The notes under the pieces: generated by a model | What the model was told of the DNA's origin: nothing | The model's database searches: none | The model's input: only the letters and a program-made list of their open reading frames with translations | Shown: piece by piece, positions 10,967 through 30,116 of the stretch | Layout of the letters: every line of letters begins with the position of its first letter | How positions within the stretch are numbered: position 1 is the first letter of the stretch | Position numbers and translations under genes: made by a program | IMG/VR virus record: IMGVR_UViG_3300043540_000164 | Span: 1 to 34,134 of that record | Length of the DNA: 34,134 nucleotides | Source of the DNA: a virus | Reading direction: 5' to 3' (one strand)

Positions 10967-11452
10967 TCAACCCAGCCGAATCTTCCCGGCTTGCTCCCAT
11001 TCCCGCACGTCGCGCCGCCAACCGCCCCGCGCCACATAGCTTCCTACAGTCATACCAACTTTCAGCATGCGAAACCGTTGAAAAGAATCAGTCGTCGGTA
11101 GCTGAACATTCTCGTTCAACCAGATAAAGCGCCGTAGATCGGCACTTGGCACGCGACCTATAATGTCCAGCACGTGGTCTATACCCTCGTGCAGACCCCC
11201 CCGGCGAGGTAGCGCCCGCGCGCCCGGGGGAAGCCGGCGTATGGGGTGGCCCACTAGGGCTTCTGCTCCTGCAAGGGCCTCTGGGGTGTTGGCCCGAAGA
11301 AGGGCCAGCACAAGGTCAGCCTGGTAAAATCCAGCTGCATCTAGTTGTTCGTATAGTGCCCCGGCATACCAGGGCAACCCCAGCTCGCGGGCGGCTGCCC
11401 GCTGAACCGGGATTGGTAGGGCCTGCACGACCCTCCGGTATTTTTCCAACAT
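10967..11452 (-). CDS. Phage protein with C-terminal GMTVGxYVA motif
   Basis: The protein has 161 residues and starts at an ATG preceded by GGGGGG. The first two thirds are helical with Arg/Pro-rich links (HPIRRLPPGARALPRRGG). The last 35 residues, LKVGMTVGSYVARGGWRRDV and then KIRLG, match the end of the neighbouring protein at 11474-12091. This short domain (a GMTVxEY turn, a helix and a final beta strand) recurs at the C-termini of unrelated phage proteins and probably mediates protein contacts. Function unknown. Confidence 0.65.
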   Translation of the reverse strand: MLEKYRRVVQALPIPVQRAAARELGLPWYAGALYEQLDAAGFYQADLVLALLRANTPEALAGAEALVGHPIRRLPPGARALPRRGGLHEGIDHVLDIIGRVPSADLRRFIWLNENVQLPTTDSFQRFRMLKVGMTVGSYVARGGWRRDVREWEQAGKIRLG

Positions 11453-11473
11453 GGTGCGCCCCCCGTATTGGTG

Positions 11474-12091
11474 TTATGTGGGGTCGCCCAGACTGATCAC
11501 ACCCCGCGAGGCATCATAGCGGATGTCGCCGATGGCCAAGGCCTCGTGTTCTTCCCTGGCACCCGTCTTGGTCTTGCGGCCCTCGGCCATGCTGCGCGCC
11601 ACTGCGGCAGCCACGTACTCACCCACCGTCATGCCTTCGCGGTAATCCGCAAACCGCTTGGCGCGGGCCTGGAGCAGCTTCTCCCCCATGTGGATGGTTT
11701 TGAGATGGAAGGTGGGGGCGCGGCCCCTGTGGCCGTGGGTGGGTTCCTTCGGGGCCTTCGGCTCCTTGGCCTTCTTCTCCTTCGGGGCCTTGGCGGCCTT
11801 CAGCGGGGCCTCCGCGTGATTCTCCAACGCGCGCTGACCGGAGGCGAAGGCTACGAGGCTGGAGTGCAGCGCGGCGATACGCTTGGTGGCTGTGTCGCGG
11901 TCTTTGAACTTCTTCACCGGCTGCGTCTTGCGGCCGTTGGTGTCGAAGTGCTTGATGGACGCCGCCACCTTACACATGCGGTTGTATGTTTCCACCAGTT
12001 CCGCGCCGGTCATACCCTCCAGGTTGATCGGTTCCGCCGCGCTGAGGTCGTATGTGTGGTCGCCGAGGTTAAAATTGTAATTGTGGGACAT
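11474..12091 (-). CDS. Conserved phage protein with basic linker and GMTVGxYVA tail
   Basis: I start at the ATG at 12091 with GGTGAG upstream (a second ATG lies nine bases earlier). The N-terminal domain has MTGAELVETYNRM, then VKKFKDRDTATKRI, a small helical module known from other phage proteins. A Lys/Ala/Pro-rich linker (residues about 95-125) follows. The C-terminus contains YREGMTVGEYVA, then DIRYDASRGVISLGD, shared with the next gene. The Lys-rich linker suggests nucleic-acid contact. A leader with hairpins and a mini-ORF precedes the gene. Confidence 0.68.
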   Translation of the reverse strand: MSHNYNFNLGDHTYDLSAAEPINLEGMTGAELVETYNRMCKVAASIKHFDTNGRKTQPVKKFKDRDTATKRIAALHSSLVAFASGQRALENHAEAPLKAAKAPKEKKAKEPKAPKEPTHGHRGRAPTFHLKTIHMGEKLLQARAKRFADYREGMTVGEYVAAAVARSMAEGRKTKTGAREEHEALAIGDIRYDASRGVISLGDPT

Positions 12092-13865: not shown

Positions 13866-13994
13866 CTAACTCAGGCCGTCCTCACCATAATCCTGCCTAC
13901 TTCGGTTGTGCAGCAACCAACCCCAAAGAATTACCCCAGTGGATACAAACGCACCGACAACGTAGCCCATTAGGAAGATTACAAAGCCGTGCAT
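13866..13994 (-). CDS. 42-residue single-pass membrane protein
   Basis: The ATG at 13994 lies within the last codons of the DNA polymerase gene and has AAGGAGG at ideal spacing, also inside that gene. The product is MHGFVIFLMGYVVGAFVSTG, then VILWGWLLHNRSRQDYGEDG, then LS. Residues 4-29 form one transmembrane segment, followed by a polar, charged tail. The size suits a small phage membrane protein (a holin-like or membrane-anchoring role), but there is no other lysis gene nearby. Confidence 0.65.
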   Translation of the reverse strand: MHGFVIFLMGYVVGAFVSTGVILWGWLLHNRSRQDYGEDGLS

Positions 13995-16039
13995 TTCCCT
14001 GCCTCCTTCTCCGCCCACGCCTCTGCCCACGTTGCACCGTAGCCCGCCTTCTTATCTTTCGCCGCGCGGCCCCAACTGACCCCATACTCCGCGTCCACCA
14101 ACATGGGTACGTTCAGCTTAACTACGTCCCTCATGATCTGCGCCGCGCGCTGACCGTCGGCCTCGCTTGTCAGGCTGAACCCCAATTCGTCGTGCATTTG
14201 CAAACGAGGCATGATACCCGCCCGCCAGCATTCCCGCATTGCCATCTTAGTCTGCCGCGCCGACGACCCCTGCACCCCCCGGTTAAACGCTTTTCGCACG
14301 TCTGCCCGGCGTAGCACCTTCCCGTACCACGGATGGTCGGCGTCCTGCGTGCGCCGCAGAGCCTCCTCGTAACGGCAAGGCATAACGCTCAGCATGGTGC
14401 GTCCGGCTTGCCGTTTGACCCAAGCGTTTTCCGCCTTGAACTCCCGGTAGCCCGGTTCCCAGTCGTCAAAATGTGCCCGCGCACCATCCACCAACCTTAT
14501 ATAACCCCGCCGGGCCGCCAGCTTTTGGAACTCCTGGTTTGCCCGACCTATGAACGGCATCTCCTGATCATAACGCTCCATAGTGCGGGCTGCCTCGTCC
14601 TCGGTCATTCCCGTCATCTCAGCAAACTTAGCTATTCCTGCCCCGTAAGATTTTGCGAAATTGCAATCCTTAGCTCGCCGCCGGGGTAGGCCTGTCATAT
14701 CCACCACCAGGTTGTGAAAGTCCGTGGCGGGATCGGTCCTGTACCTGTCTGCCGCCTCGCTCGCCTTCTCCAGCTTCAGCAGCTCGGCGAAATGCACCAT
14801 GAAGCGGTATTCCTGCTGACTGTAGTCCAAAGCCCCCCACAGGCACCCTTCGTCGGGGCGGAAGGCTGACCGTACCAGCGGAGCAGTCTCGTCGTCCCGG
14901 CTAGGCATCTGCTGAAGCGGGGGGTCGCTGTAACTGACCCGGTGGCTACGCGTACCCCCGCCCTCAGCACGGAATTGGTTGACCGTAGGGTGTATGCGGC
15001 CCCGGTGGGCGAACCCCAGAATGTACCCCCGAATGAACTTGTTAGCTAGGTCGTCGTACTTGCGCGCGGCGGCCACCCTCCTGGGTAGCCAGTGCTCGTG
15101 ACCCTTCATCCAGTCCCCCTGGAAGCTTCCCAGGCCGTTCTCGTGAGCCTCTGAGGGTGCTGTCCGAGGAAAGACTATGCCGGCCTCGTTAAAGGTGCGC
15201 TCCAGCCGCTGGTTCGAGCGCACGTCGGTCATCGTCCACTGACCCCCCGCCTGCCGGGCTATCTCCGCTAGGGCCTCATCCCGCTTCTGGTCAAACAACG
15301 CCGCCGTTCGTATAGCGTGGTCCACGTCTAGGGCTAACCCGCGCCGCCGCATCTCTACGATCAGAGGTATCAGATCGCACTCCAACTGAAATGCTGAAGT
15401 CATCCCCTGAGCCTCTATCTCTGGCATGAGCGAAGCCAGTAGTTGCCGAGGCCGGCGCGCGTCCTCTTCTGCGTAGGGGGCCACGAACCGGGCCGGCAAA
15501 CGCCACAGGTTGGGCTTGACGTTCTTGCCCGCGTAACCGTAGGCTGCAGCGGCCTCTCTTAACAGGTTCTCGTCTTTCCCCTCTATTCCTCGCCAGCCAC
15601 AGATCGCCTCCATACTGTAGCTGCGCAGGTTCTCGTCCACCATAGCGGCGGCAGCAGCGGAGTCCACACACTGGGCCGGAGGGGCTACTCCAAAGTCGGC
15701 CTGTAGCCATCCGATATCGTAGCTTGCGTTAAAAAATACGAAGCGCGTCTCGGTCTGGCTAAAAAGTTTCTTCAACCAATCTGCCACCTGCTGCTTCGGG
15801 TAACTATCGCTGTCGGGGTGTTGTAGGTTAATGTAGATGGCGTGTTCTCGCCAACTGACGCTGATTCCGGCTACATAACCCAGGCCCGCGTGCCAGCCAG
15901 GGCCTTTTCCGGCCGCCAGGGCGTCGTCTCTCGTTTCTACGTCGATTCCGCACTCACTTTCCGAAGATAAATCGGGCAACTCAGGTTGAATCCAATTGCT
16001 CTCGGGCAAGAAAATAGGTTGTTGGCCCTCAAGATACAT
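13979..16039 (-). CDS. Family A DNA polymerase with 3'-5' exonuclease
   Basis: This is the 686-residue phage replicative polymerase. The exonuclease motifs are DVET (33-36), FFNASYD (102-108) and YAEED (189-193). The polymerase motifs are A, LDYSQQEYR (404-412, metal-binding D405); B, RRRAKDCNFAKSYG (453-466, with K457 and F461 equivalent to E. coli K758 and F762); and C, MHDE (615-618). There is no 5'-3' exonuclease domain. Phe at the 762 position is the Pol I-like state. AAGG stands before the ATG. It lies downstream of nucleotide-metabolism genes and shares the window with an AEP primase and two helicases, giving a nearly complete replisome. Confidence 0.93.
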   Translation of the reverse strand: MYLEGQQPIFLPESNWIQPELPDLSSESECGIDVETRDDALAAGKGPGWHAGLGYVAGISVSWREHAIYINLQHPDSDSYPKQQVADWLKKLFSQTETRFVFFNASYDIGWLQADFGVAPPAQCVDSAAAAAMVDENLRSYSMEAICGWRGIEGKDENLLREAAAAYGYAGKNVKPNLWRLPARFVAPYAEEDARRPRQLLASLMPEIEAQGMTSAFQLECDLIPLIVEMRRRGLALDVDHAIRTAALFDQKRDEALAEIARQAGGQWTMTDVRSNQRLERTFNEAGIVFPRTAPSEAHENGLGSFQGDWMKGHEHWLPRRVAAARKYDDLANKFIRGYILGFAHRGRIHPTVNQFRAEGGGTRSHRVSYSDPPLQQMPSRDDETAPLVRSAFRPDEGCLWGALDYSQQEYRFMVHFAELLKLEKASEAADRYRTDPATDFHNLVVDMTGLPRRRAKDCNFAKSYGAGIAKFAEMTGMTEDEAARTMERYDQEMPFIGRANQEFQKLAARRGYIRLVDGARAHFDDWEPGYREFKAENAWVKRQAGRTMLSVMPCRYEEALRRTQDADHPWYGKVLRRADVRKAFNRGVQGSSARQTKMAMRECWRAGIMPRLQMHDELGFSLTSEADGQRAAQIMRDVVKLNVPMLVDAEYGVSWGRAAKDKKAGYGATWAEAWAEKEAGKCTAL

Positions 16040-16051
16040 GGTCTTACCTTT

Positions 16052-16255
16052 TCAACCTTTCTCCGGTAACGGGTACAATGCTACCAACTCACTAAACTCC
16101 AGATCCTCGTGCTCGGGCTTTATCAGTATGGGCGGGTGGGCCTGTATGTGCTTCTCAAACTCCGTAAGAAACGGGTCCGCCTTGCGTCGGTTGAGCAGCA
16201 GTTGCGGCACCACGTCACCGTGAAAGCCCTTGACCCAGAACACGAAGTTGTACAT
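16052..16255 (-). CDS. Hypothetical protein, 67 residues
   Basis: The ATG shares one base with the previous stop (TAATG), so translation is coupled. The start MYNFVFWVKGFHGD is aromatic and beta-like, and the C-terminus is acidic with EHEDLEFSELVALYPLPEKG. No domain recognised. It sits between a DUF1599-like gene and the polymerase. Confidence 0.55.
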   Translation of the reverse strand: MYNFVFWVKGFHGDVVPQLLLNRRKADPFLTEFEKHIQAHPPILIKPEHEDLEFSELVALYPLPEKG

Positions 16256-16719
16256 TATTCGGGGTCTCCCTCTTCCGAACCGCTCGCGTGATGTCCCCCG
16301 TCCTCAGGGGTTCCGGGCCGCAGTGGCATCTCCACCACACCCCGCGCCAACATCTCGGCCTCCACCAACAACAGATACCGACGCAGATCTCTTACCTCCG
16401 CCAGCACGGTACCGTCCTCACCCCCCGGCCGTGTCGTGATTTGGGCGAAGATGTCCTCCGCCTGGGTCATGCGCAGCAGACGATCCGTCGTGGCTGCGTT
16501 TACGTGCACAGAAGTCGGCCATCCCGGCGGGGGGTCCGGGGGGGTCATCAGGACGATGAGTCGGTCGATCTTGCGCTTTAACATAAACCATGCGCTGCGG
16601 CCGCCGCTTTTTTTCCAACTCCCACCGTAGGTTTTGTCCTTCTCCTTCAAAAAGCGCACGTCCTCCTGAGCCACCGCGTTCATGTGCTGCCAGTAAGCGA
16701 AGTATTTAGGGTCAGACAT
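16255..16719 (-). CDS. DUF1599 (Nmad1)-like phage protein
   Basis: I start at the ATG at 16719, which overlaps the previous stop by eight bases; the longer frame adds a spurious leader. Of the 154 residues, VRFLKEKDKTYGGSWKKSGG and then SAWFMLKRKIDRL resemble the kDYGgSW...RKxDR signature of DUF1599, also called nucleotide modification associated domain 1. A second conserved stretch, GEDGTVLAEVRDLRRYLLLV, follows. The family has an all-alpha MazG-like fold and is reported near phage nucleotide-modification genes. Its placement beside the HD nucleotidase and thymidylate-synthase-family enzyme fits that, but no activity can be read from the sequence. Confidence 0.6.
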   Translation of the reverse strand: MSDPKYFAYWQHMNAVAQEDVRFLKEKDKTYGGSWKKSGGRSAWFMLKRKIDRLIVLMTPPDPPPGWPTSVHVNAATTDRLLRMTQAEDIFAQITTRPGGEDGTVLAEVRDLRRYLLLVEAEMLARGVVEMPLRPGTPEDGGHHASGSEEGDPE

Positions 16720-17317
16720 TATGGTCGGCTCCGTCGTAAACTTCTTGTTCGTAACCCACGCGCCGGCGCATATAATCGTTGGCGCGCGTAACAATGAGGA
16801 GCAAGTCACTGTCCCCGAAACTAGCTTCAACCAACTGTGTGTTTAGCTTCATCACTTGTTCCCAGCAGCGTTGTACGATAGCCGCCGCGTAGCGGTTGCC
16901 CAGGTTACACTCGTGTAAACCGTGTTCCCACATCTCGATCATTTCGCACAGTTTGAACAGGGTTTTCGTCAAACCCCCCGGCCCGAGGATCTCCGGCATG
17001 TCAGCCACGGGTACCATAAACCGCTGCCCCATCTCCAGGCAAGCATGGTCGTCGATAGCGTTGACGGCTGTACGCAAAACCTCGTTACCCGCCTTAACAG
17101 GGTAGGGCAGGTCCCCCGTCACTACCTCGCCGATGTCGTGGAACATAGCATAAACGATCAAGTCCTGCGGGGCCTCGGGCCAAATGGCCAGCAGAATGCG
17201 GATGACCTGCCACGTGTGGCTAGCCACGTCTTGGGGCTTCAGCGTAGGCCACGTATGATACCGCTGGACGAGGCCCGCGCGCCGGGGGTCCAGGGTTTGG
17301 TAGTGAAACTCGCTCAT
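16712..17317 (-). CDS. HD-domain 5'-deoxynucleotidase-like protein (YfbR type)
   Basis: The ATG at 17317 makes an ATGA overlap with the upstream synthase stop and has GGAGG in front. The 201 residues contain the HD metal site: SHTWQ (H34), FHDIGE (H60, D61, E64) and a later Asp. LVQRYHTWPTLKPQDVASHT is the characteristic N-terminal block of YfbR-like dNMP phosphohydrolases. The enzyme would dephosphorylate deoxynucleoside monophosphates. In this setting it could remove dTMP so that a modified pyrimidine enters phage DNA, which is an inference from context. Confidence 0.78.
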   Translation of the reverse strand: MSEFHYQTLDPRRAGLVQRYHTWPTLKPQDVASHTWQVIRILLAIWPEAPQDLIVYAMFHDIGEVVTGDLPYPVKAGNEVLRTAVNAIDDHACLEMGQRFMVPVADMPEILGPGGLTKTLFKLCEMIEMWEHGLHECNLGNRYAAAIVQRCWEQVMKLNTQLVEASFGDSDLLLIVTRANDYMRRRVGYEQEVYDGADHNV

Positions 17318-19419
17318 TTCTTTCTCCTCCTCAACCACTCCTGGCAAGCCAATCGCCAGGGTGTGGACGTTATGGTGCTGGTGGTCAACAGCGCGCCTTC
17401 TAAATCACCCTGTTTGTACTGATGGTGGGCTAGTAGTGCCATCGCAACCGTGCTCAGCAAGAACGTGTTTTTACCTTGGAGTTGAACGCGAGTACCCACG
17501 TGCAACTGGTCCACCCAGTGAACTAAGTGCCTCAAGTCTACGTCAAACGTCGCCGGATTCTCCACCAGGGGGAAACTGGGTAGAGTGTAGCGCGGGTCGC
17601 TGACTACCTCGGCGAGCTGGTTTAGGGCTAGTATCTGCCGGGGGGTGTTGACCTCTTTATGGATTACAAATTCCAAACCCAAAAGCTTAGATTTCAAAGC
17701 CAATTTGTCGAGGTCCTTGATGTACGCGTGGTAGTCGTTGCTAAACTGGGTATAGACTCCGGCCGGATAGCTGCTCATACCAGCGACGTAGGCGTGCAAA
17801 AAGCCAAAGTGCACGGCGTTCGCGCCGTAACAGTTGTGCGCCAGGACCCCGTTGCCAACGAGGGCGGTGTGGTAGTCTTCAACCGTAAAGTCGTAGACGT
17901 CCTCCGGGGGCAACTCTCTTATCTCAACAATCTTGTGATTGGCCCTCATGCGGTTTTCTTGGTTTAGTCGCCTCATAAGTTCTGATTGTCGACGACGCTG
18001 CTCCGGGTCTGACCACCTAGAGGCCCGCCCCCTTCTCGCGGCCTCTCTTTTTTCCTCAGGTGAAACCACCTTAGCAGCTGCTTCTGAAGCCTTTTTTACC
18101 CTAGTTTTTCTTTCTTCGGGGGAAATTCCCTTCCAGTAATTTGTCATGGTTCTTTTGCTATGCTCTGTTTGTTTTTTGGTTAGAATAGCTCTTTCCTCTT
18201 CACACATATTTTTTATTGATACTTTCGCAGCCTTGCTAGCTATAGTCGCTCGGTCTCTCCTCTCCTCTTTACTTAGTGATAACATTCTAGCCCTCGCGTG
18301 TAACGCCATGTGCTCAGCTTGGGTGAGACGAATTAAGTTACTTTCTTTATCGTTGGTTACGTCCTCATCATCGTGATGTACGTGTATACCGTCCGGCTTA
18401 GGTCCCCGCAAAAACTCATCGTATGCTCTGTAAACAAACTGGGTATTATCGAACGAAGTGTTACCCAGTATGTTCTTCTTGATAATGGCTCGCCCTCCTT
18501 TCTGATCCACCCACGGAGCCCATATACGGTCCCCTACCCGCAAATCTCTGACAGGAATCTCAATCATTACTTTTCCAAGAATTGACGTAACACCCCGCCG
18601 GGTTTTCTTTTTGTAAAGTTTGTGGTCCCCAGTGAGTTTTAAAGTGCTTCCATCATCAAATATCAACTCTAATACGGGCTTTACACCCGTCTTCCAAGCA
18701 CGGGTACACCACTTAATGGCCATATCACCAGTTTTAGGGTCAACAGCATAAACAGGGAAACGTTTAAGTCCCAAATTAAAGCGATCCGTAAGACTTCGGA
18801 TAGACAGGTCTCCTTCCGGAGATTTAATTGAAGTATCTCCAGCTAGACACCCCATCAAAATGTCATTCGACCGGCAGCACACGGTCATATCGAGCACGCC
18901 GTTGCGCACCCTGAAATAAACGTGAGTGTTGCAAGGACGATCCCGCCAGTTGCCGCGAAGATCGTCCCAGCCCGTGCTGGACAGATCATCCCAACCCGCA
19001 TCCCACATCTGCAGAACAGCCTGCCGCGTCTCTGGGTCGCGTTTCAACATGTTTATAATCACGGGCAGCTGATCAAATCCCTGGGCATCGCGCCAGCGCG
19101 CGCCGTAGGCACCGTGTATACGTCCGTCCGCCTCCGCAAACCTCTCGCCAAAATTCTTCACGTAATGGTTTAGAAACGCGGCGTCGTCGCGCCCGGCCAA
19201 CATCCAAACCGCCTCGGCGAGATGGAAAAAAGGATTGGCGTCCCGTACTGCGCTATGGAGAACACATTCCCAAGAGTTCTCGTACACCGTGGCCACAGGC
19301 CCCGGCGCGGTCAGCGCCGGCCCGGCGCGTGTGTAGCGCAGCGTGCCCTGGTCGCCCAGGTAGCGCAGCCCTGCGGGTAGGGCCTCGGCCACGTTCCTTA
19401 CCTTAATGACGTGTGTCAT
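17314..19419 (-). CDS. Thymidylate synthase / dUMP hydroxymethylase-family enzyme, intein-containing precursor
   Basis: The precursor has 701 residues. The exteins (1-190 and 530-701) join into a 362-residue enzyme. Family marks are RPCNTHVYFR (nucleophile C163), CCRSNDILMG (181-190) continuing as CYGANAVHFGFL after splicing (nucleotide-binding), and a C-terminal folate and substrate region. The SND-x3-G-x-YGAN-x-VHF form is that of phage thymidylate-synthase homologues, including those proposed to make 5-hydroxymethyl-dUMP, rather than that of cellular ThyA (GLPFNIA). I therefore favour dUMP hydroxymethylase because of the hypermodification operon upstream, but thymidylate synthase cannot be excluded. 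GGAGG lies seven bases before the ATG. Confidence 0.85.
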   Translation of the reverse strand: MTHVIKVRNVAEALPAGLRYLGDQGTLRYTRAGPALTAPGPVATVYENSWECVLHSAVRDANPFFHLAEAVWMLAGRDDAAFLNHYVKNFGERFAEADGRIHGAYGARWRDAQGFDQLPVIINMLKRDPETRQAVLQMWDAGWDDLSSTGWDDLRGNWRDRPCNTHVYFRVRNGVLDMTVCCRSNDILMGCLAGDTSIKSPEGDLSIRSLTDRFNLGLKRFPVYAVDPKTGDMAIKWCTRAWKTGVKPVLELIFDDGSTLKLTGDHKLYKKKTRRGVTSILGKVMIEIPVRDLRVGDRIWAPWVDQKGGRAIIKKNILGNTSFDNTQFVYRAYDEFLRGPKPDGIHVHHDDEDVTNDKESNLIRLTQAEHMALHARARMLSLSKEERRDRATIASKAAKVSIKNMCEEERAILTKKQTEHSKRTMTNYWKGISPEERKTRVKKASEAAAKVVSPEEKREAARRGRASRWSDPEQRRRQSELMRRLNQENRMRANHKIVEIRELPPEDVYDFTVEDYHTALVGNGVLAHNCYGANAVHFGFLHAYVAGMSSYPAGVYTQFSNDYHAYIKDLDKLALKSKLLGLEFVIHKEVNTPRQILALNQLAEVVSDPRYTLPSFPLVENPATFDVDLRHLVHWVDQLHVGTRVQLQGKNTFLLSTVAMALLAHHQYKQGDLEGALLTTSTITSTPWRLACQEWLRRRKK
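17833..18849 (-). mobile_element. Intein with HNH homing endonuclease
   Basis: The 339-residue insertion begins C191 LAGDTSIKSPEGD (block A), has LKLTGDHKLY (block B with T and H), and ends VYDFTVEDYHTALVG and then NGVLAHN before Cys+1 (blocks F and G). All catalytic positions are present (Cys1, block B His, penultimate His, terminal Asn, Cys+1), so splicing is probably intact. The centre holds an HNH motif (HVHHDDEDVTNDKESN then LIRLTQAEHMALH), followed by Lys/Arg-rich repeats of the DNA-binding kind. The DNA is visibly more AT-rich than the exteins, a sign of transfer. It interrupts the enzyme exactly at G/C of the conserved RSND-x3-G-CYGAN motif. Confidence 0.92.
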
Positions 19420-19609
19420 TTATGTACCTCCATCTCCATCGGGTGTTCGGGTGGCTGAGGTCCCACCTGTCCCCGTACCACCACAGCATCGTCTCCCACT
19501 CGTCCGTGCGTCCCCCGCCGTTATCCGCTGAGAATAGCACATAGTACAGACCAGGGGCCGGAGGGTTACGACTGTAGTAACGCGGGCGGGGGGTTTGCGT
19601 TTGTTTCAC
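19403..19609 (-). CDS. Small Trp-rich hypothetical protein
   Basis: The frame has a GTG start without a clear Shine-Dalgarno and overlaps the start of the synthase gene by 17 bases. The 68 residues are rich in aromatic and basic amino acids: LYYVLFSADNGGGRTDEWET, then MLWWYGDRWDLSHPNTRWRW. This looks like a short beta-sheet protein of the kind common in phages (strand, acidic loop, WxGxRW strand). Function unknown. Confidence 0.55.
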   Translation of the reverse strand: MKQTQTPRPRYYSRNPPAPGLYYVLFSADNGGGRTDEWETMLWWYGDRWDLSHPNTRWRWRYINDTRH

Positions 19610-19623
19610 GGAATAAGACCCAG

Positions 19624-20178
19624 CTAAAAGCAGTAGAACAGGTAAGCCTCCCCCCGGTCGAGCATGTGGACATTTAGACCCACTGCGCGGTCAGCCGCCA
19701 CCTTCCGCACGGCGTAGGCGTGCTTGTCGGCCGTGTTCTTCTGGTTAAGTGGTACATCTACCCCCCGGACGGCCCGTCTGTCCTGGACGGCATCCAGGCA
19801 CGTCTGCAGGGGTGTATTCAGGGCCATTACACTGAGCGGGGCGACGCTTCCTAGTTGTACGAACCGCTCAGACTTCCACTGTCCGACGAGACGACCTTCG
19901 AAAACCACGTGATATCCTGACGCCGCGCGCCTAGCCACCCGTTCCTGTATCCAGTCTGCCGCACCCTTCCAGCTAAATTTGTCGCAACCACTACTTGTAG
20001 TTTCATAACTGCCGCCGAAGAAAAGCTTAGTGTTTGCATGTTAATACCAGACGAGCAACGGCTTGTTCTTTTCTGGGTGACCCATGGTGCAAGTAACTCC
20101 AGGCCCCGCCGTAGCCATAAGCCGCCGCACTAGATGCGTCTTTCCCGCTCCGCTCGTTCCGCGAATGTTGATAATCAT
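19624..20178 (-). pseudogene. Second DNA 5-hmdU kinase-like gene, broken by TAA
   Basis: An ATG with AGGAGA upstream starts MIINIRGTSGAGKTHLVRRL, with a perfect P-loop. After 45 codons a TAA (20041-20043) stops it. The same frame continues for another 138 codons: GGSYETTSSGCDKFSWKGAA, then GYHVVFEGRLVGQ, and so on to TAG at 19624. Both halves align with the intact kinase at 22285-22875 (GTNGSGKSTVVRRVM; MGRYGEAATGGCDRISDVKS; GFHVLFEGIRMMN). The whole frame, 184 sense codons, is close to that protein's length (196). It is therefore a paralogue with one nonsense codon. It could be dead, reach full length by read-through, or reflect a sequencing error. A phage-type promoter lies just upstream. 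Confidence 0.82.
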
Positions 20179-20203
20179 TCTCTTCTCCTGTACCACCCTA
20201 CCT

Positions 20204-20231
20204 ATCATACGCCCAAACCAGGGGAAGTATA
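20204..20231 (-). promoter_or_regulatory. Phage-type promoter before kinase paralogue
   Basis: On the minus strand: TATACT (20231-20226), a 16-base spacer with CCCC...GGG, and TATGAT (20209-20204). It shares the ACTTCCCC-N-GGGCG-x-AT-x-ATAGG pattern with the promoters at 23.7 and 30.1-30.4 kb. It overlaps the last codons of the PLP enzyme gene and would start transcripts into the 19.6-16 kb genes. Confidence 0.65.
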
Positions 20232-21128
20232 GGCCCGGTGGGCGTCAATCTTGGGCTCCGCGCCCACCAACCAAACTGCCGTTTTATCATCAGACCACTG
20301 GTCCAGGTAACCGGTCTCTGCCATCCAGTTGAAAATTTTGCCCTCATAAGTTGCGTGTAATTCAATGTTGTCAAACTTATACGGCATGCGGTCTCCGTAA
20401 ATGGCGTAGCCCGAGCGGTGGAGGCTGACGCTATTATCCCAAGCAAACCCCCAGTCGTTCTGAATACCCATGCGACGTAACCGATCCAACACCCAGTAGT
20501 CTTTCTCCGGCCCTATTCCAACAGTAACCAACCTCTTCACGTTCTTCCGCCCGTGCCAGACCAAGCCACAGATGATGCTGGTTAGCGAGTTGCCGCTGCC
20601 GAAGGGCACCACAAGGGTCTCAACTTGCTCCGGTAGATTGATCACCTGGGCCGCCCCTACGGCATGAAACGGCCGCAACTCATTATCGGCTTCTGTGGTT
20701 ATACCATAGGGTACCACGAAGTCCTCTTCGGTCTGCATCTTCTTGAGTGCGGACTGCAGCGCAGGATTATACCCCACCTTGGTTCGCGTGAACGTGGCTC
20801 CCAAAAGCCGGGCGATCTCCGTACTGGGGTGCCGGCTCGGTTCCGCCGCCGTTATGTGGTGACTGGGAAGGCCGTGGATACGGGCGAGGACGGCTGTCAT
20901 ACAGTGCTGGGGGCTTAGGGCACTGGCCGCAGTGAGAACCCGCCGGGCACTTATCCCCCGGTTCTCGAACAACCACCCGAGCTGGCGCAGTTTGCTTCCG
21001 TTCACACCCCCCGGCCCAAGAGGGGCGAACAGGTCTTCCCGCTTCAGCCATAGTCCCCTGTGGTTTTCCCAGGGGGTCAGGCGCTTGGCGGAGGCGCGGA
21101 ACTCGGCCGGGGAGGGGAGGGGAATCAT
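20205..21128 (-). CDS. PLP-dependent fold-type II enzyme (tryptophan synthase beta family)
   Basis: I start at the ATG at 21128, which overlaps the upstream stop (ATGA). Of 307 residues, LWLKREDLFAPLGPGGVNGS then KLRQLGWL contains the PLP-binding Lys in the position used by ACC deaminase / D-cysteine desulfhydrase-like enzymes. VPFGSGNSLTSIICGL is the glycine-rich phosphate-cradle loop. The family does beta- or gamma-eliminations, replacements and related amino-acid chemistry. As the last gene of a hypermodification operon it most likely rearranges or decarboxylates an amino-acid adduct on the thymine methyl group in DNA, as proposed for PLP enzymes of phages M6 and ViI. A catabolic role is less likely here. 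Confidence 0.82.
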   Translation of the reverse strand: MIPLPSPAEFRASAKRLTPWENHRGLWLKREDLFAPLGPGGVNGSKLRQLGWLFENRGISARRVLTAASALSPQHCMTAVLARIHGLPSHHITAAEPSRHPSTEIARLLGATFTRTKVGYNPALQSALKKMQTEEDFVVPYGITTEADNELRPFHAVGAAQVINLPEQVETLVVPFGSGNSLTSIICGLVWHGRKNVKRLVTVGIGPEKDYWVLDRLRRMGIQNDWGFAWDNSVSLHRSGYAIYGDRMPYKFDNIELHATYEGKIFNWMAETGYLDQWSDDKTAVWLVGAEPKIDAHRAYTSPGLGV

Positions 21129-22288
21129 GACCAGCACTCCCTGTCGAACGAATTGTCGAAGCACTCCCAGCGGCGGCTCATCATGATGGGTTTTCCGGTC
21201 TCGCGGAAGTGGTTCTGCTTTCGGGGGGTCAGGCCCGGATCATTCGGATTATCCTCCTGCCGCAAATGAATAGGAAGGCAATCCCTCCGCATCTGCCAAA
21301 ACTGGTTGGTCAACCAACCTTTGCCCCACTTCTCTTCTGCGTATTTGATGCGGTCGTGCATCATATCTGCGTAACAATTAGGGTAACGTCGGTTAGGGCG
21401 AAACCAACTCTTGAAAGTGCAAAAGGCACTCTCTATAGTGTGGTAGTGAACATGGCGGATGTCCACGTCTGGCACGTCCGCCATTCTTTCACGAGCCTCT
21501 ACCAGAAGTTGGGCAGCTTCCAAACTTAGCCACGCCACTTGCTCCGGCGCGTACTTCCCCTCGAACCTTGTACTAGTGTGCCAATCCAGATCATCTCGCC
21601 CCAACACCTTCGCCAACCCGTTGCGGTGGCTCTTGCTACCGTCCATATCGTCAAGGAACAGCGTAGGACACTCAATGTCCACTCCGACCAGACGTAGGTA
21701 CTCAGTGTAGCTGAAGGCACTGAGCCGGCCGAAGGTGAAAAACTTGCTTCTTATCTCTTTCCACAGAAGGTCGAAGGCCTCGGTAGGCCTTCGGCCCTCT
21801 GTAAATTGACGGAAGTACGCACTTTGATCCCCTTCTGTTAGCTTGCGGTAGCATTCTACCGAGCGCACGAAGTCCTTCTTGTGGTAACGGCGGTCGGTAT
21901 CAAAAAGCAACTTAGTATAGTGCTCGTCAAACCAGTCCTTCAGGGCCATACAAGTCAGCCGGCGAAAGTCTGGAAAAGCGCGGTAAATCTGGAAACTGGT
22001 GATGATGTTTTGGGTGTTGCCGTTAATGAACGCCAACCAGAGCATTTGTTCCGCGTCGAGTTTGAACGTCTCCTGCAACCACGGGAAAGCGAAGTAAACG
22101 CAGCCGGGGTGCGTGCGGTGAACTAGGTGGAACTCGTAAAAACGTAGAAATACCTCCCGCCGGTAGCGGGGGTGTCGGAAGTCTTGTCTTGACTCCAGGT
22201 TAGTTACCTCTTGCTCCTGGTGCATTTCGCACCACCGCGCGGCGTCAGGCTGTCCGGGGGAGGTCAGGTAGTTGAGGGGTCCAGTCAT
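21125..22288 (-). CDS. Probable amino acid:DNA transferase-like hypermodification protein
   Basis: The protein has 387 residues, with ATGA overlaps on both sides. It is mainly helical and rich in aromatic and charged residues: RREVFLRFYEFHLVHRTHPG, then MLWLAFINGNTQNIITSF, then SKFFTFGRLSAFSYTEYLR, and a C-terminal TIESAFCTFKSWFRPNRRYP. This pattern recalls the proteins called amino acid:DNA transferases (ADDT), which are linked to 5-hmdU kinases in phages. The activity would replace the phosphate on phospho-hmdU in DNA with an amino acid. The match is from memory and not certain, but the gene neighbourhood (kinase, helical protein, PLP enzyme) supports it strongly. Confidence 0.65.
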   Translation of the reverse strand: MTGPLNYLTSPGQPDAARWCEMHQEQEVTNLESRQDFRHPRYRREVFLRFYEFHLVHRTHPGCVYFAFPWLQETFKLDAEQMLWLAFINGNTQNIITSFQIYRAFPDFRRLTCMALKDWFDEHYTKLLFDTDRRYHKKDFVRSVECYRKLTEGDQSAYFRQFTEGRRPTEAFDLLWKEIRSKFFTFGRLSAFSYTEYLRLVGVDIECPTLFLDDMDGSKSHRNGLAKVLGRDDLDWHTSTRFEGKYAPEQVAWLSLEAAQLLVEARERMADVPDVDIRHVHYHTIESAFCTFKSWFRPNRRYPNCYADMMHDRIKYAEEKWGKGWLTNQFWQMRRDCLPIHLRQEDNPNDPGLTPRKQNHFRETGKPIMMSRRWECFDNSFDRECWS

Positions 22289-22875
22289 TTTGCACCCTTA
22301 AGCAAGTCCACCACCAACCCAGGGGCCTCGTCCCGCGTTGCCCCGTGAACTTTGGCCCCAACCATTCCCAACTTGGTGGCGTAGTTGCGAGCACGGGTTA
22401 TGTTACCCTTTATACCTTTCAACACCACGGGCCTGGGCTCACCCCCGTTGGCTGTCTGGCGCGCCCGGATACCTGCGAGACTCTCCTCCAGCGTAGTGCG
22501 CAACAGAACTATGTGGTAAGGACAACCCGCTTTCACCATCCGCTGGCAGAACTCTACGCCAACGGTATGGTTCATCATCCGTATACCTTCGAACAAAACG
22601 TGGAAGCCTGAAGAGCACCCATCAACAATCACCGGCCGGATGCTCTTGACGTCGCTAATGCGGTCGCACCCTCCGGTCGCGGCCTCGCCATACCGGCCCA
22701 TGACGAGGATGAGCGGGGGTACAGTCTCTTTACCCTCGTCACCTTTGAAGTGGTAAGTGCTACCGTACTCTTTACCTTCCACGATCATTGTGGACAGTTT
22801 CGTCATTTGCTCCATAACCCGACGCACCACTGTGCTTTTGCCACTGCCGTTCGTTCCGCAGATTTGAATGATCAT
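22285..22875 (-). CDS. P-loop kinase, probable DNA 5-hydroxymethyl-dU kinase
   Basis: The 196-residue protein begins MIIQICGTNGSGKSTVVRRV, a Walker A at residues 7-15. Later features are LILVMGRYGEAATGGCD, FHVLFEGIRMMN (probable substrate and Walker B-like region) and LRTTLEESLAGIRARQ (lid-type Arg helix). The VMGRY-x5-GGCD and hVLFEG blocks are those of phage nucleotide kinase-like proteins that phosphorylate 5-hydroxymethyl-dU within DNA. ATGA overlaps couple it to its neighbours. The broken gene at 19624-20178 is its paralogue. A free-nucleotide kinase is the alternative. Confidence 0.78.
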   Translation of the reverse strand: MIIQICGTNGSGKSTVVRRVMEQMTKLSTMIVEGKEYGSTYHFKGDEGKETVPPLILVMGRYGEAATGGCDRISDVKSIRPVIVDGCSSGFHVLFEGIRMMNHTVGVEFCQRMVKAGCPYHIVLLRTTLEESLAGIRARQTANGGEPRPVVLKGIKGNITRARNYATKLGMVGAKVHGATRDEAPGLVVDLLKGAK

Positions 22876-23732
22876 ACCCGGCTCCTCATTAGTTGCTTCG
22901 GCCGCCCCTCGCCGAGGCGTGCACGTTCCATTTTGTCAAATTCACACAAACAGTTCTGAGTGTCTTGCCCACTCACTCCGGGGTAGCCGTAGTCCAACAT
23001 GACCTGGTTGAGCACCCAGCGTAGGCGCTCGTTCTCCTCAATCCACTCATCCAGCTTCCACGGTGACTTGGGCGCGCGCCCCAGTACGCGGTTCAGCCCG
23101 CGCTGGCTACCGGGGCCGGGGGCGGCGAACGTCCACCAGTCGGGGGCACCCAACATCGCACCGCAGAATTTCGCGTCAGCTATAATTTGCGCCGCCATAA
23201 AAGATCCCAGCCCGTAGCACGCGGTCAGCCGGGAGTGCATGTCGGCTAAAGGCTCGTAGGGACGATAGCATAATTGCTGACGCTGGTTCCACAACGGGGT
23301 CAACACATCACGGTCCAGGTAGACCGCCCTAGGTACCCCTGGCATTCCCCCCGACCGAATCATGTATGCTCCGGAATACACGGTACCTCCGTACTCATCC
23401 TTCTGAGCCATCATCACCCCGAGCAAATTTGACAGTCTCCCTGGTACCCAGGGAACCGGGTAGCCCAGGAGCTTTAGGGTGGGCACCCAGTTAACGTGAC
23501 GTGCCACCGCCGCCGCGAACCACGCATCCGGGTCGGCGTGATGAGGGTCAAACCAGTTTTTGCGCAACCACGCGGTAGTTGTATCCAGCTCACGATACAC
23601 GTTGCAGAAACGGTAGGTCTGGAGTATCTTATCCTGCGTCCAAGGCCATGGCTCCCCGGCCGCTCGCCGCAGATAAATGCGGTGGCGCTCTAAGGCGAAG
23701 CTGACGATGCGGTCTGTGCCCTCGGCGGTCAT
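22872..23732 (-). CDS. Helical DNA-hypermodification protein (aGPT-PPlase2 / HMUDK-helical-like)
   Basis: The protein has 286 residues and is the first gene of the operon, with AGGAGG eight bases before the ATG. The motif order ERHRIYLRRAAGEPWPWTQD, then ILQTYRFCNVYRELDTTTAW, then LRKNW is the hallmark of a phage family annotated as putative DNA base hypermodification protein (alpha-glutamyl/putrescinyl thymidine pyrophosphorylase clade 2, or the helical domain of 5-hmdU DNA kinases). A helix-hairpin-helix-like GLGSFMAAQIIAD and an APGPGSQRGL loop follow, as in DNA-glycosylase-related folds. It probably acts on DNA with the kinase encoded next to it. Confidence 0.75.
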   Translation of the reverse strand: MTAEGTDRIVSFALERHRIYLRRAAGEPWPWTQDKILQTYRFCNVYRELDTTTAWLRKNWFDPHHADPDAWFAAAVARHVNWVPTLKLLGYPVPWVPGRLSNLLGVMMAQKDEYGGTVYSGAYMIRSGGMPGVPRAVYLDRDVLTPLWNQRQQLCYRPYEPLADMHSRLTACYGLGSFMAAQIIADAKFCGAMLGAPDWWTFAAPGPGSQRGLNRVLGRAPKSPWKLDEWIEENERLRWVLNQVMLDYGYPGVSGQDTQNCLCEFDKMERARLGEGRPKQLMRSRV

Positions 23733-23755
23733 GGTGATTGCCTCCTGATCACCCT

Positions 23756-23783
23756 ATCATGCGCCCGTTTCCGGGGAAGTAAA
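23756..23783 (-). promoter_or_regulatory. Promoter of the hypermodification operon
   Basis: On the minus strand TTTACT (23783-23778), a 16-base spacer with CCCC...GGG, and CATGAT (23761-23756). It lies between the stop at 23785 and the ATG at 23732. It has the same layout as the promoters at 20.2, 30.15 and 30.36 kb. Confidence 0.7.
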
Positions 23784-23784
23784 G

Positions 23785-24003
23785 CTACCCCTTGGTCTGT
23801 TTGGTCTTCAATATCTGAGCTGCCTCAAACGCGAACTCAGGGTCACACATCAGTATCCGTGCCCACTCGTTAGCAGGAAGATTGGTGTTGATAACTATGG
23901 CCGGCGTAACACCCTCCGCCTTAACCACTATGTGAAGGTTTGCGCAACTATTGCAACGGAAGGCCTGAATAACTGTACCAGGTAGTAAGACGGCAGAGGG
24001 CAT
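23785..24003 (-). CDS. Hypothetical protein with CxxC, 72 residues
   Basis: The ATG at 24003 shares a base with the preceding stop (TGATG). The protein has VIQAFRCNSCANLHIVVKAE with one CxxC pair, then VTPAIVINTNLPANEWARIL, and an amphipathic C-terminal helix. A single CxxC is not enough for a zinc ribbon unless it dimerises. Located at the end of the methyltransferase transcript. Function unknown. Confidence 0.55.
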   Translation of the reverse strand: MPSAVLLPGTVIQAFRCNSCANLHIVVKAEGVTPAIVINTNLPANEWARILMCDPEFAFEAAQILKTKQTKG

Positions 24004-24212
24004 CAGATTAACCCCTTCTCCGTGGCCAGCCGTTCCGACAACGTGACTACCCACAACTGTTTTCCTTTCGGGGCGCGTGTCCCCGCCAACTCTAACTCCA
24101 CCTGACTCTTAGGCAACCACACGCCCTCGCGCTCCTCGTCAACGCTCACAAGAATTGCACCCGTCGTCTCATGAATCAGAAACACCGTGATCTCTATTAG
24201 GTTGCTGCGCAT
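24003..24212 (-). CDS. Hypothetical protein, 69 residues
   Basis: The ATG lies 44 bases inside the end of the methyltransferase gene. The sequence alternates strands and turns: IEITVFLIHETTGAILVSVD, then GVWLPKSQVELE, then KQLWVVTLSERLATEKGL. The phrase WLPKSQVE is common in small phage proteins with a beta-barrel-like fold. No activity can be named. Confidence 0.55.
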   Translation of the reverse strand: MRSNLIEITVFLIHETTGAILVSVDEEREGVWLPKSQVELELAGTRAPKGKQLWVVTLSERLATEKGLI

Positions 24213-24960
24213 TTTGGTTCTCCAAGTATGCAGTTATAAACGCCGCAGCTACTTGCGGGACGATCGCGTTACCGTATCCGCGCAAGCGTTCCACGCGGGA
24301 GGATAACCCATTAACCTTCTCGTGAAGTTCGAAGACACCCTCGCAGCTTTTGCTTCCGAAACCGTCAGGCCAAGACGAATCAACTGTGTCCTCACCTGAT
24401 CCTCTAGGTGATAACACTTTACCAACCAACGAACACCCCCCGCGTCCCCATTTGCCCGGGGTGTTACCCACCCAGTAAGTCCTGTGCCGTCCGTGCGGTG
24501 CCCCGACGCCCGCAGCAGGGAGTACCGCCGCCCCGCAGGCGTAACTGCTTCCTTCCAGGTCAGAGAAAACAAGGTCGAGCCAAGCCCGTCCAGTTGGACC
24601 TTCAACCTGTTCCCCAAACAAGACGTCAGGTCGCCAGTATCTGATGAGCCAGAACCAGTCTGGCCAAAGGTGCCGCTCGTCAGTAAACCCTTTTCTCTTG
24701 CCTGCCGTGCTGAAAGGCTGGCATGGGCAAGAACCCGTCCATACGGGTTTGTCGTCTGGCCATCCGGCGAGTCGAAGGGCGTAGCTACAACCTCCGATTC
24801 CTGCAAAGAAGTGACACTGGGCGTATCCGAGCAAGTCTCGGGGGGACACATCACTGATGCTTCTCTCATCTACGTCTCCTGGGGCTATTAGACCCTCGCT
24901 AATTAAGTTGCGGAGCCACTGGGCTGCGAACGGGTTTATCTCGTTGTAATAAGCAACCAC
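24169..24960 (-). CDS. DNA C5-cytosine methyltransferase
   Basis: The protein has 263 residues and a GTG start with GAGG before it. Motif I is FFAGIGGCSYALRLAGW (51-67); motif IV is TGSCPCQPF with catalytic C80; motif VI reads EQV (117-119) instead of the usual ENV, as in related phage enzymes; motif VIII is GAPHGRHR (153-160); and motif X is RLRGYGNAIVPQVAAAF. The target-recognition region between VIII and X is short (about 60 residues), so the specificity is probably simple or the enzyme is reduced. It would methylate phage DNA to avoid host restriction. Most of its length is overlapped by another reading frame. Confidence 0.88.
   Translation of the reverse strand: MVAYYNEINPFAAQWLRNLISEGLIAPGDVDERSISDVSPRDLLGYAQCHFFAGIGGCSYALRLAGWPDDKPVWTGSCPCQPFSTAGKRKGFTDERHLWPDWFWLIRYWRPDVLFGEQVEGPTGRAWLDLVFSDLEGSSYACGAAVLPAAGVGAPHGRHRTYWVGNTPGKWGRGGCSLVGKVLSPRGSGEDTVDSSWPDGFGSKSCEGVFELHEKVNGLSSRVERLRGYGNAIVPQVAAAFITAYLENQNAQQPNRDHGVSDS
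24249..24869 (-). CDS. Long overlapping ORF nested in the methyltransferase gene
   Basis: A second frame on the same strand is open for 206 codons wholly inside the methyltransferase gene. Its ATG has GGAG six bases upstream. The product is not random-looking: GSTLFSLTWKEAVTPAGRRY, then SLLRASGHRTDGTGLTGWVT, and a C-terminus FTRRLMGYPPAWNACADTVT then RSSRK. I recall proteins of exactly this type (LMGYPxxWDxCAxTxxxSSRK ends) from many phages next to or over C5 methyltransferase genes. It is either a real dual-coded protein or a frame kept open by the conserved methyltransferase sequence. Function unknown. Confidence 0.5.
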   Translation of the reverse strand: MREASVMCPPETCSDTPSVTSLQESEVVATPFDSPDGQTTNPYGRVLAHASLSARQAREKGLLTSGTFGQTGSGSSDTGDLTSCLGNRLKVQLDGLGSTLFSLTWKEAVTPAGRRYSLLRASGHRTDGTGLTGWVTPRANGDAGGVRWLVKCYHLEDQVRTQLIRLGLTVSEAKAARVSSNFTRRLMGYPPAWNACADTVTRSSRK

Positions 24961-24967
24961 TTCGACC

Positions 24968-26473
24968 TCACAAATACGGATACGCCCTATCTGTCAGGCT
25001 ATCTACTATGGTCAGCTTCTGCCTTGCACGCGTTGCTCCAACATAAAACACGCGGGCTTCGCCGTCCTCGTTTCGCTCCATCTCGACGAAGCTGCGGCGG
25101 GCCATTTCTGTCATCAGGATCACCTCGTCTGCCTCCCCGCCCTTGCTGCCGTGGATAGTGCTTAACCTCACCCGGGCCTTGCCCGTCAGCCGCTCGCCCG
25201 CCCGCCGGGCCGCCAGCATGTATGATATCTCGTCCGGGGGAAGACGCGTCAGGGCGTCGTGCCAAATTGCGGTAGTAGTTAAGCCGAACTGATTTATTAA
25301 ATCAGTTAGGCTTAACTTTTCCTCCTCGCACTTCTTCAACTTTGCCTTTGCACCCCGCATCACTCCCTCGCCCGCCGTCATGTAGGAGTAGACCGCATTA
25401 GCGTCGTCAGCCGAAACGGAACCTCCGGACCGCAGCTTCTCCCAAGCCTGTACCGCGCGTAACACGGCCGGGCTCACCGCCGAGCGGCCCCCGAAGTCGT
25501 AAAGCACACCTCTACGCCTCAATTCGGGTTCTACCTGCTCCTGTAACACGTAGTTGTTTCGTGCCAACACCAGAATATCTTCACCGCTGAAATTGCACCC
25601 GCTGATGTCCAACTCACGTCCTACAGAGCCCTCCTCATCACGAGGCTCCCACGCCTTCGGCCTCCGGTGGGCTACCCGCCCTATAACGGCGTTGGCCACC
25701 CCCTGAACGGCGCGGGGCACCCGGTGGCTCCTCCCCAGAACCCTAACGCTACCCTGCATATTGACCAACGTATCCACGTCCGCCCCTGCCCAAACGTACA
25801 GAGCCTGGTCGTCGTCGCCAGCTATCACCACCCGCCGTGCTCCCTGCGCAAGCCGCCAGACCACCCGCCATTGGAGAATTGACAAATCTTGTGATTCGTC
25901 CACCAACAATACGTCCAGCGCCGGGGCGGTGTCCCGGACCAGCATCTCCTGAAGCATGCCCGTATAGTCCAGCAGGCCGTGCGCTGTCTTGTACGCCGCG
26001 TAGCAACGGCTCACGTGGTCCACCGTTCCCCAACTTAGCCTGTCGTCGTCCTCATCATACAACTGGCGTAACGGTACCCCCCGCATGCGTGCTAGGTTCT
26101 CCATAAACAACACACGGTCACCTACCTCGTAACCCGCGAAGGTTCCGTCATCACACCACGTACCTGTTACCCGAACACCCGCGTAATCACTAAAATCTCT
26201 CAAACGGTCGCGCTCCATAACGTCCTCCGGCCGCAACCCTAGCGTTCGGTAAGCTAGTGAGTGCAAAGTTCGGAAATGGGGGAAGTCAGAACGGGGCAGC
26301 TTGAACCGTTCCGCCGCGCGGCTGATCGCAGTCTCAGCCCCGCGCCGGGTGAACGTAACGAAACCAACCCTGTCCGGGGGGGTGCCACTTACCATCTCGT
26401 TGTCCACTATGTCCAACAGGGTCGTAGTCTTACCCGTGCCTGGAGGCCCCAGTATTATCTCAGGCTCCGCCAT
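24968..26473 (-). CDS. UvrD/Rep-like SF1 DNA helicase
   Basis: The 501-residue protein has the SF1A motifs in order: I GPPGTGKTTT (9-18), Ia FVTFTRRGA, II LLVDESQDL, III AGDDDQALYVWAGAD, V STIHGSKGGEADEVIL and VI RVFYVGATRARQKL. It is shorter than UvrD (about 720), with reduced 1B and 2B subdomains. It would unwind DNA in replication or repair and could assist a phage replisome that has no DnaB-type helicase in this window. The start overlaps the winged-helix gene by 14 bases. The methyltransferase gene follows after seven bases. Confidence 0.9.
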   Translation of the reverse strand: MAEPEIILGPPGTGKTTTLLDIVDNEMVSGTPPDRVGFVTFTRRGAETAISRAAERFKLPRSDFPHFRTLHSLAYRTLGLRPEDVMERDRLRDFSDYAGVRVTGTWCDDGTFAGYEVGDRVLFMENLARMRGVPLRQLYDEDDDRLSWGTVDHVSRCYAAYKTAHGLLDYTGMLQEMLVRDTAPALDVLLVDESQDLSILQWRVVWRLAQGARRVVIAGDDDQALYVWAGADVDTLVNMQGSVRVLGRSHRVPRAVQGVANAVIGRVAHRRPKAWEPRDEEGSVGRELDISGCNFSGEDILVLARNNYVLQEQVEPELRRRGVLYDFGGRSAVSPAVLRAVQAWEKLRSGGSVSADDANAVYSYMTAGEGVMRGAKAKLKKCEEEKLSLTDLINQFGLTTTAIWHDALTRLPPDEISYMLAARRAGERLTGKARVRLSTIHGSKGGEADEVILMTEMARRSFVEMERNEDGEARVFYVGATRARQKLTIVDSLTDRAYPYL

Positions 26474-29501: not shown

Positions 29502-30116
29502 CTATTTCTTTGCCTTGGTCTTCCAAGCCTTACCACCCACCTTGACCTCCACCTTCTCACCTATGTAGACGCCGAGGAGGTCCTGCGGCACCACGCGGTT
29601 CGCCTCCATCTCCCGCTTCACCATGGCGGTGAGGCTCTGGGGTAGGACCGAAACCTTACTTTCGTACTCAAATTTGTTTTTACTGAGTAACGCCTCCAGC
29701 TTCTTAGCCCGCGCGTTCTCGCCCATGTTAAATTGCAGTTTGATTGCGTGCTTGATCAGGTCGGCGTGACCGTTCTCCTCCAGCCAAACGTAGGCCATCC
29801 CCTCTCGTTCTTTGGGAATGGAAGCGTTGACGATCTGTTTCCGGCTGAACTCGGCCGGGGGGTTGTTGCCATCGGCTTCTAGGCTAAAGGCCGGTATCTT
29901 GGCTTCCAGCATGATGTCCAGCAGGGTCCTGCTCTCGCTAAAGTTGATGGCTGCCACTATCTCCGCCAACCTAGCCTCTAGGTCCTCCTTCTTCATGTAC
30001 AGGTCTCGGAGATGGCTGGCCTCCTTACGAACCTGCTCTAGGGTTATAGGGCTCGTCGGCTCTTCGGCGCGCTGCGACCCGCGCCGAACAAAGTCCGGTA
30101 TGTTATCTGCGGTCAT
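29502..30116 (-). CDS. Conserved phage protein, first gene of replication operon
   Basis: The 204-residue protein has an N-terminal coiled coil (residues about 25-60, LRDLYMKKEDLEARLAEIVA), then ARxKQIVNASIPKE-like sequence (FSRKQIVNASIPKEREGMAY), VWLEENGHADLIKH, and a C-terminus SLTAMVKREMEANRVVPQDL then LGVYIGEKVEVKV. This domain (WLEENGxxDLIK, then TLxAxVKxxxExGxxxPxDLxG) recurs in many tailed phages beside single-strand DNA-binding or primase genes. No enzymatic motif is visible. A phage-type promoter lies 36 bases upstream. Confidence 0.65.
   Translation of the reverse strand: MTADNIPDFVRRGSQRAEEPTSPITLEQVRKEASHLRDLYMKKEDLEARLAEIVAAINFSESRTLLDIMLEAKIPAFSLEADGNNPPAEFSRKQIVNASIPKEREGMAYVWLEENGHADLIKHAIKLQFNMGENARAKKLEALLSKNKFEYESKVSVLPQSLTAMVKREMEANRVVPQDLLGVYIGEKVEVKVGGKAWKTKAKK

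Follow-up and report, generated by a model that had tools for sequence, protein, structure and literature searches.

The minus-strand operon at 20205-23732 is a thymidine hypermodification cassette, in which, judged by sequence comparison, the amino acid:DNA transferase (ADDT) and the PLP enzyme stand on the side of phage ViI, and HMUDK_hel, the thymidylate-synthase-family (TS) enzyme and the DNA polymerase are M6-like. The minus-strand genes from 23732 to 13979 quite probably form one replication and modification unit, through which a hypermodified base would replace part of the thymidine by ViI-type chemistry. The pathway as such is already known; new here are the mix of two lineages, an intein in the TS gene and a broken second kinase. 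Thymidine hypermodification shields phage DNA from many restriction enzymes, and the recombination of hypermodification modules has already been stressed in the literature. A locus in which ViI-type amino acid and PLP genes are joined to an M6-type replication region speaks for tailoring steps being exchangeable modules, and it offers a compact gene set open to testing. The sequence examined, referred to as the window, spans an entire IMG/VR record (34,134 bases) that very likely represents part of a genome.

Layout of the operon and the adjoining nucleotide genes

The genes considered are listed below with their coordinates, strand and main evidence.

22872-23732, minus: HMUDK_hel / aGPT-PPlase1-type protein, 286 aa (PF18723, E 8.2e-39; M6 gp55, 34%, E 2e-47)
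22285-22875, minus: K1, intact P-loop kinase, candidate 5-hmdU DNA kinase, 196 aa (AAA_33, E 1.7e-6)
21125-22288, minus: ADDT, amino acid:DNA transferase, 387 aa (PF18724, E 3e-20; phrog_3271, E 4.9e-78)
20205-21128, minus: fold-type II PLP enzyme, ViI type, 307 aa (phrog_3650, E 1.6e-61; ViI PLP enzyme, E 2e-40)
19624-20178, minus: K2, second P-loop kinase, with an in-frame TAA at 20041-20043 (kinase profile, E 1.8e-19)
19403-19609, minus: small ORF between K2 and TS, 68 aa (ORF list; Pfam scan)
17314-19419, minus: thymidylate synthase/dUMP-hydroxymethylase family gene, about 362 aa without the intein (phrog_5131, E 1.6e-80; M6 TS, 45%)
17833-18849, minus: HNH intein in the TS gene, residues 191-529 (PF14890, E 4.4e-12)
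16712-17317, minus: HD-domain YfbR-like 5'-deoxynucleotidase (PF12917, E 1.3e-11)
16255-16719, minus: Pam3_54-like protein (34% to Pam3_54, E 2e-20)
13979-16039, minus: PolA-type DNA polymerase (M6 polymerase, 33%, E 3e-79)
10475-10936, minus: dCTP deaminase (PF22769, E 2.7e-20; phrog_1663, E 5e-46)

An earlier, sequence-only reading of this DNA had described a four-gene operon for thymidine hypermodification. Its four minus-strand ORFs are present in the ORF list of the window at the coordinates given there, and the genes are indeed joined by ATGA overlaps at all three junctions (22872-22875, 22285-22288 and 21125-21128). The operon is thus real, and its assignment to thymidine hypermodification is well supported by what the four proteins match in Pfam and PHROG. 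Because of the overlap at 21125-21128, the PLP gene is taken to start at 21128, and a longer GTG-initiated ORF reaching to 21164 is ruled out. The four coupled genes therefore stand; as a description of the operon, however, the number four is too small, since the packed minus-strand run reaches PolA and a fifth gene, K2, had been overlooked. K2 begins 26 bases past the PLP gene and is preceded by a ribosome-binding site (AGGAG). Downstream of it follow, in order, the 68-aa ORF, the TS-family gene, the HD gene, the Pam3_54-like protein, a small ORF and PolA, which from the 68-aa ORF onwards overlap or are separated by short gaps.

Two promoters had also been proposed, one at 23756-23783 and a second before the TS gene. 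A consensus scan of the operon strand within 16000-25000 gave no sigma-70-like site, the first proposal falling below the level of the scan. Neither proposal is supported, and the first is rejected; other promoter types are possible.

Among the downstream genes, the TS-family, HD-type 5'-deoxynucleotidase and dCTP deaminase (near 10.5 kb) assignments of the sequence-only reading are all confirmed by the profile matches listed above. The sequence of the TS-family protein fits a methylase or a hydroxymethylase, and the dCTP deaminase is a possible source of dUMP. Only the DUF1599-like label for 16255-16719 has to be given up, as neither this protein nor its Pam3 homologue Pam3_54, annotated in Pam3 as 'nucleotide modification', has a Pfam match. 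The TS intein comprises 339 residues, scores over the cut-offs of both TIGR01443 and TIGR01445 and is inserted directly before Cys530, between CRSNDILMG and CYGAN of a loop.

Some further observations concern these genes and their surroundings. Kin of the TS intein occur in two IMG/VR contigs, within the ADDT gene of L086 (10754-11707) and within a helicase-like ORF on L002 (2371-3222). The TS-family protein of phage Montesquieu (L138, 2907-4457) is extended at its C-terminus, and the YGDSWRRRG segment of this extension resembles the window protein 16255-16719 (KTYGGSWKKSGG), suggesting that this protein is functionally linked to the TS-family enzyme. Outside the operon, a cytosine DNA methyltransferase gene (24169-24960, minus) is mostly overlapped by a second open frame (24249-24869, minus). 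Both match the same place in the phages NTEC3 (49% and 37%) and SAP012 (53% and 39%), and in NTEC3 the second frame alone is annotated. The two may represent a conserved overprinted gene pair, although the likeness of the second frame could in part be a consequence of that of the first.

Families, predicted folds and relationships of the encoded proteins

A nucleotide search with the operon against cultured phages found no match, nor did phmmer searches of the PDB with the single sequences of the four proteins; profiles were required. With HMMER against Pfam, the two proteins whose family membership the sequence-only reading had regarded as decisive both match hypermodification families far above the cut-offs, HMUDK_hel with 134.1 bits (cut-off 25) and ADDT with 73.4 bits (cut-off 26.2), in agreement with the HMUDK-helical-like and ADDT-like calls made for them. 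For reference, the M6 and ViI counterparts were scanned with the same profile library as the window, and all four families are represented in each phage: HMUDK_hel, the P-loop kinase (HMUDK), ADDT and a PLP protein of the PALP fold.

AlphaFold2 models of HMUDK_hel (pLDDT 94.9) and of the PLP enzyme (pLDDT 93.1) were built on alignments of IMG/VR relatives. Re-alignment of the HMUDK_hel model with VIA ranks the human queuine salvage enzyme first (Z 10.4); PaMx11 gp46 (8z2m, according to its PDB title a 5-PmdU glycinyltransferase) is found at Z 9.8 and several DNA glycosylases at Z 8 to 9.6. Foldseek returned no match with E < 0.001 for this model. Based on the VIA ranking, in which the Z-scores are moderate for a helical protein, HMUDK_hel probably adopts a fold of the helix-hairpin-helix DNA-glycosylase type. 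By that ranking, the predicted fold speaks against HMUDK_hel being itself the kinase domain, a reading that was discarded. The ADDT family profile also matches the glycinyltransferase structure 8z2m (E 6.5e-25), although it includes the M6 ADDT, a nearer kin of gp46. This lends structural support to grouping HMUDK_hel with the amino acid transferase in the DNA-glycosylase fold, which bears on the poorly understood role of HMUDK_hel.

At the sensitivity used, IMG/VR holds at least 411 relatives of HMUDK_hel and at least 157 of ADDT. In the stretch examined, 55 of 80 contigs with HMUDK_hel (L143-L222) harbor no kinase, ADDT, PLP or radical-SAM gene, a count in which the kinase profile could overlook distant kinases, and in those 55 HMUDK_hel often adjoins TS and HD genes. 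HMUDK_hel may have a role independent of a kinase.

K1, called a P-loop DNA kinase-like protein in the sequence-only reading, has an intact Walker A motif (GTNGSGKST) and keeps that assignment. It scores just above the family cut-off of AAA_33 and below that of HMUDK_HMUD1 (PF18748, the 5-hmdU DNA kinase family; 21.7 bits against 27, E 1.6e-4), and it matches the kinases of PaMx11 (29%, E 2e-15) and ViI (E 4e-6). Its phrog_800 label as a small terminase was discarded, as M6 and ViI genes matching the 5-hmdU kinase family bear the same label. K2 starts with MIINIRGTSGAGKTHLVRR, and the same frame resumes beyond the TAA; the kinase profile match listed above is to the portion past the stop. Compared across the stop, K2 resembles the PaMx11 kinase (35%, E 2e-23) more closely than K1 does, and the two kinases of the window share 27% identity. 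On account of the in-frame TAA, K2 is either a pseudogene or reflects a consensus error in the sequence. Tandem kinases are also found in the IMG/VR contigs L002, L062 and L086 and in Montesquieu.

The PLP enzyme matches PALP below the cut-off (E 1.1e-4) and shares 29% identity with ViI Vi01_182 and 31% with the Montesquieu enzyme. Its predicted model is plainly of fold-type II, as the sequence-only reading had stated, with VIA Z-scores of 21.9 to 1j0a, an ACC deaminase homologue, and 21.8 to D-cysteine desulfhydrase, and a Foldseek match at E 4e-10. When the HMM is aligned with ACC deaminase, the predicted Schiff-base residue Lys46 comes to lie in the K-L-R region; it is present in all 46 rows with a letter at that position. 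The motifs SPQ, GS(C/G)NS (GSGNS in the window) and YEGK are kept over 47 sequences, YEGK being nearly invariant.

Maximum-likelihood trees place both tailoring proteins apart from M6. In the ADDT tree, M6, PaMx11 and Pam3 are set apart at 100/100 from the rows including the window and ViI, and in the PLP tree the window and ViI share a clade from which M6 and Pam3 are excluded, also at 100/100. ViI thus appears as the nearest characterised relative of the two proteins, yet a distant one with long branches. The ViI ADDT, whose branch is very long (5.1), is 30% identical to the window protein (E 1e-26), which is 39% identical to the Montesquieu ADDT and nearest in the tree to L002 and L062, in a subclade other than that of ViI. 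The window PLP enzyme also has a long branch (2.05), and its nearest rows are uncharacterised proteins. Scanning IMG/VR with a single protein yielded one locus for ADDT and none for PLP; alignments gave 80 and 54 loci, respectively.

The searches of cultured phages show the same division. By tblastn, the window HMUDK_hel, TS, HD, polymerase, 29502-30116 protein and DEAD helicase match M6, whereas ADDT and PLP match ViI and not M6. Cultured-phage matches of HMUDK_hel are mostly M6-like Pseudomonas and Bordetella phages; those of the window PLP enzyme are mainly phages resembling ViI, besides a few mycobacteriophages and the Glutamicibacter phage Montesquieu. The M6 PLP protein, in turn, matches M6-like phages and a few others, with none of the ViI-like phages among the matches listed. 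For the terminase large subunit, the nearest relative is that of Shewanella phage QDWS (57%), so the virus is mosaic as a whole.

Predicted pathway and alternative products

Gene content, coupling, family membership, the predicted folds of two proteins and the tree placement are observed; the enzymatic steps, the amino acid and the product are inferred from established pathways. By this analogy, the TS-family enzyme would form 5-hydroxymethyl-dUMP, which would be built into DNA, where K1 would phosphorylate 5-hmdU to 5-PmdU; HMUDK_hel, its glycosylase-fold partner, probably directs K1 to flipped-out bases. ADDT would then exchange the phosphate of 5-PmdU for an amino acid, which the PLP enzyme would trim to a primary amine, most likely by decarboxylation. 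ViI reportedly uses serine, and its PLP enzyme is said to be a decarboxylase; with serine, the product in the window would be 5-(2-aminoethoxy)methyl-dU (5-NeOmdU). By relationship, serine and 5-NeOmdU are the likeliest outcome, though for this specific product the chance is about even at best. That the solved ADDT homologue gp46 is a 5-PmdU glycinyltransferase counts for the pathway; K1 scoring below the PF18748 cut-off, the broken state of K2, which is the more PaMx11/M6-like kinase, and the fragmentary contig count against it.

The sequence-only reading had noted the lack of a radical-SAM gene in the window, which is borne out: PF04055 matches M6 (E 1.1e-6) and has no match in the window contig, the complete ViI genome, the complete Vincenzo genome or the L002 contig. 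Although the window contig is a fragment, its cassette was fully covered in this search. From this lack, and from the fold type of the PLP enzyme, it had been concluded that the final base may differ from those described. Neither argument holds: M6 gp52 and ViI Vi01_182 are PALP-fold proteins too, so that a fold-type II enzyme does not distinguish the locus from either phage, and a missing radical SAM is shared with ViI and does not imply an undescribed base. Rather, its absence from both the window and ViI points towards ViI-type chemistry, which together with the placement of ADDT and PLP on the ViI side is the best prediction.

Within the same pathway, the base might still be one not yet described, a reading that is less likely than the ViI product but is the most serious of the alternatives. 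The uncharacterised ADDT subclade would add neither serine nor glycine but some other amino acid, or two kinases would provide a pyrophosphoryl intermediate, before PLP tailoring. The nearest ADDT relatives, L002 and L062, have no PLP gene in the stretch examined, and this, with the long ViI branch, means that the amino acid may not be serine; the low identity to the ViI ADDT and the long PLP branch among uncharacterised rows point the same way. Against this, the core motifs of the PLP enzyme are those of the ViI-type family, and the PLP-containing cassettes characterised to our knowledge use glycine (M6) or serine (ViI). As a separate observation, L002 encodes between its ADDT and kinase genes, at the place expected of a tailoring enzyme, a 251-aa protein (11155-11910) with no Pfam match.

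Two other alternatives are unlikely. The PLP enzyme could act as a deaminase or lyase and leave a product other than a primary amine, given that the solved structures it most resembles, at Z about 22, are those of D-cysteine desulfhydrase and ACC deaminase; its homology to the ViI enzyme, and the aminoethoxy group borne by ViI DNA, speak against such an activity. Equally improbable is a decaying cassette, in which K2 would be the broken 5-hmdU kinase, K1 would serve another role and the DNA would contain only 5-hmdU or canonical thymidine. In favor of such decay are the in-frame TAA of K2 and the fact that this kinase is the one closer to the PaMx11 and M6 kinases, but the K1 gene, lying between HMUDK_hel and ADDT, is intact and coupled to both in translation, and the remaining genes are open with conserved residues retained. 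M6-type chemistry, with attached glycine, radical-SAM rearrangement and decarboxylation to 5-NedU, is very improbable in spite of the M6-like HMUDK_hel, TS, HD and polymerase and the incomplete contig, given the lack of a radical-SAM gene in the contig and the 100/100 exclusion of ADDT and PLP from the M6 clades.

Comparison with known hypermodification loci

M6 DNA contains 5-NedU and ViI DNA 5-NeOmdU (PMC6449724). Salmonella phage ViI (Vi01_061c, 130c, 199 and 182) has the same four families as the window, its ADDT and PLP proteins on the same side of the trees and no radical SAM. Its genes are, however, scattered over a 157-kb genome, whereas those of the window form an operon, set in a replication region that otherwise resembles M6, and the identities are low (ADDT 30%, PLP 29%). 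The cassette of Pseudomonas phage M6 (gp51-gp59) comprises the same families, with homologous HMUDK_hel, TS, HD, polymerase and helicase and with TS-HD before polA, but has its own radical SAM and Nmad5 and another PLP/ADDT clade; the window, unlike M6, has the extra broken kinase and the TS intein. In Pseudomonas phage PaMx11, ADDT, tailoring genes, kinase, HMUDK_hel, TS, HD and Pol lie in one block with a kinase similar to K2, the tailoring genes being annotated as FAD-dependent oxidoreductase and acetyltransferase in place of PLP.

Montesquieu (MONT_38-42 and 51-53) has an ADDT-PLP-kinase-kinase block as well as HMUDK_hel, TS and PolA, as in the window; its kinases belong to the Ploopntkinase3 family, and TS and HMUDK_hel lie away from the block. 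MONT_40 and MONT_41 were reported as auxiliary metabolic genes, an ABC transporter and an ACC deaminase (PMC9331655); in the comparison made here (L138, 7940-11056) they look like a kinase and a PLP enzyme that belong, next to ADDT, to a hypermodification block. Among IMG/VR contigs, L205 and L206 carry kinase, HMUDK_hel, PLP, ADDT, TS and HD genes in one block, like the set of the window, and L008 carries PLP, ADDT, kinase, HMUDK_hel, TS and HD; these differ from the window in gene order and in the single kinase found. The window is therefore one of several loci with this gene set.
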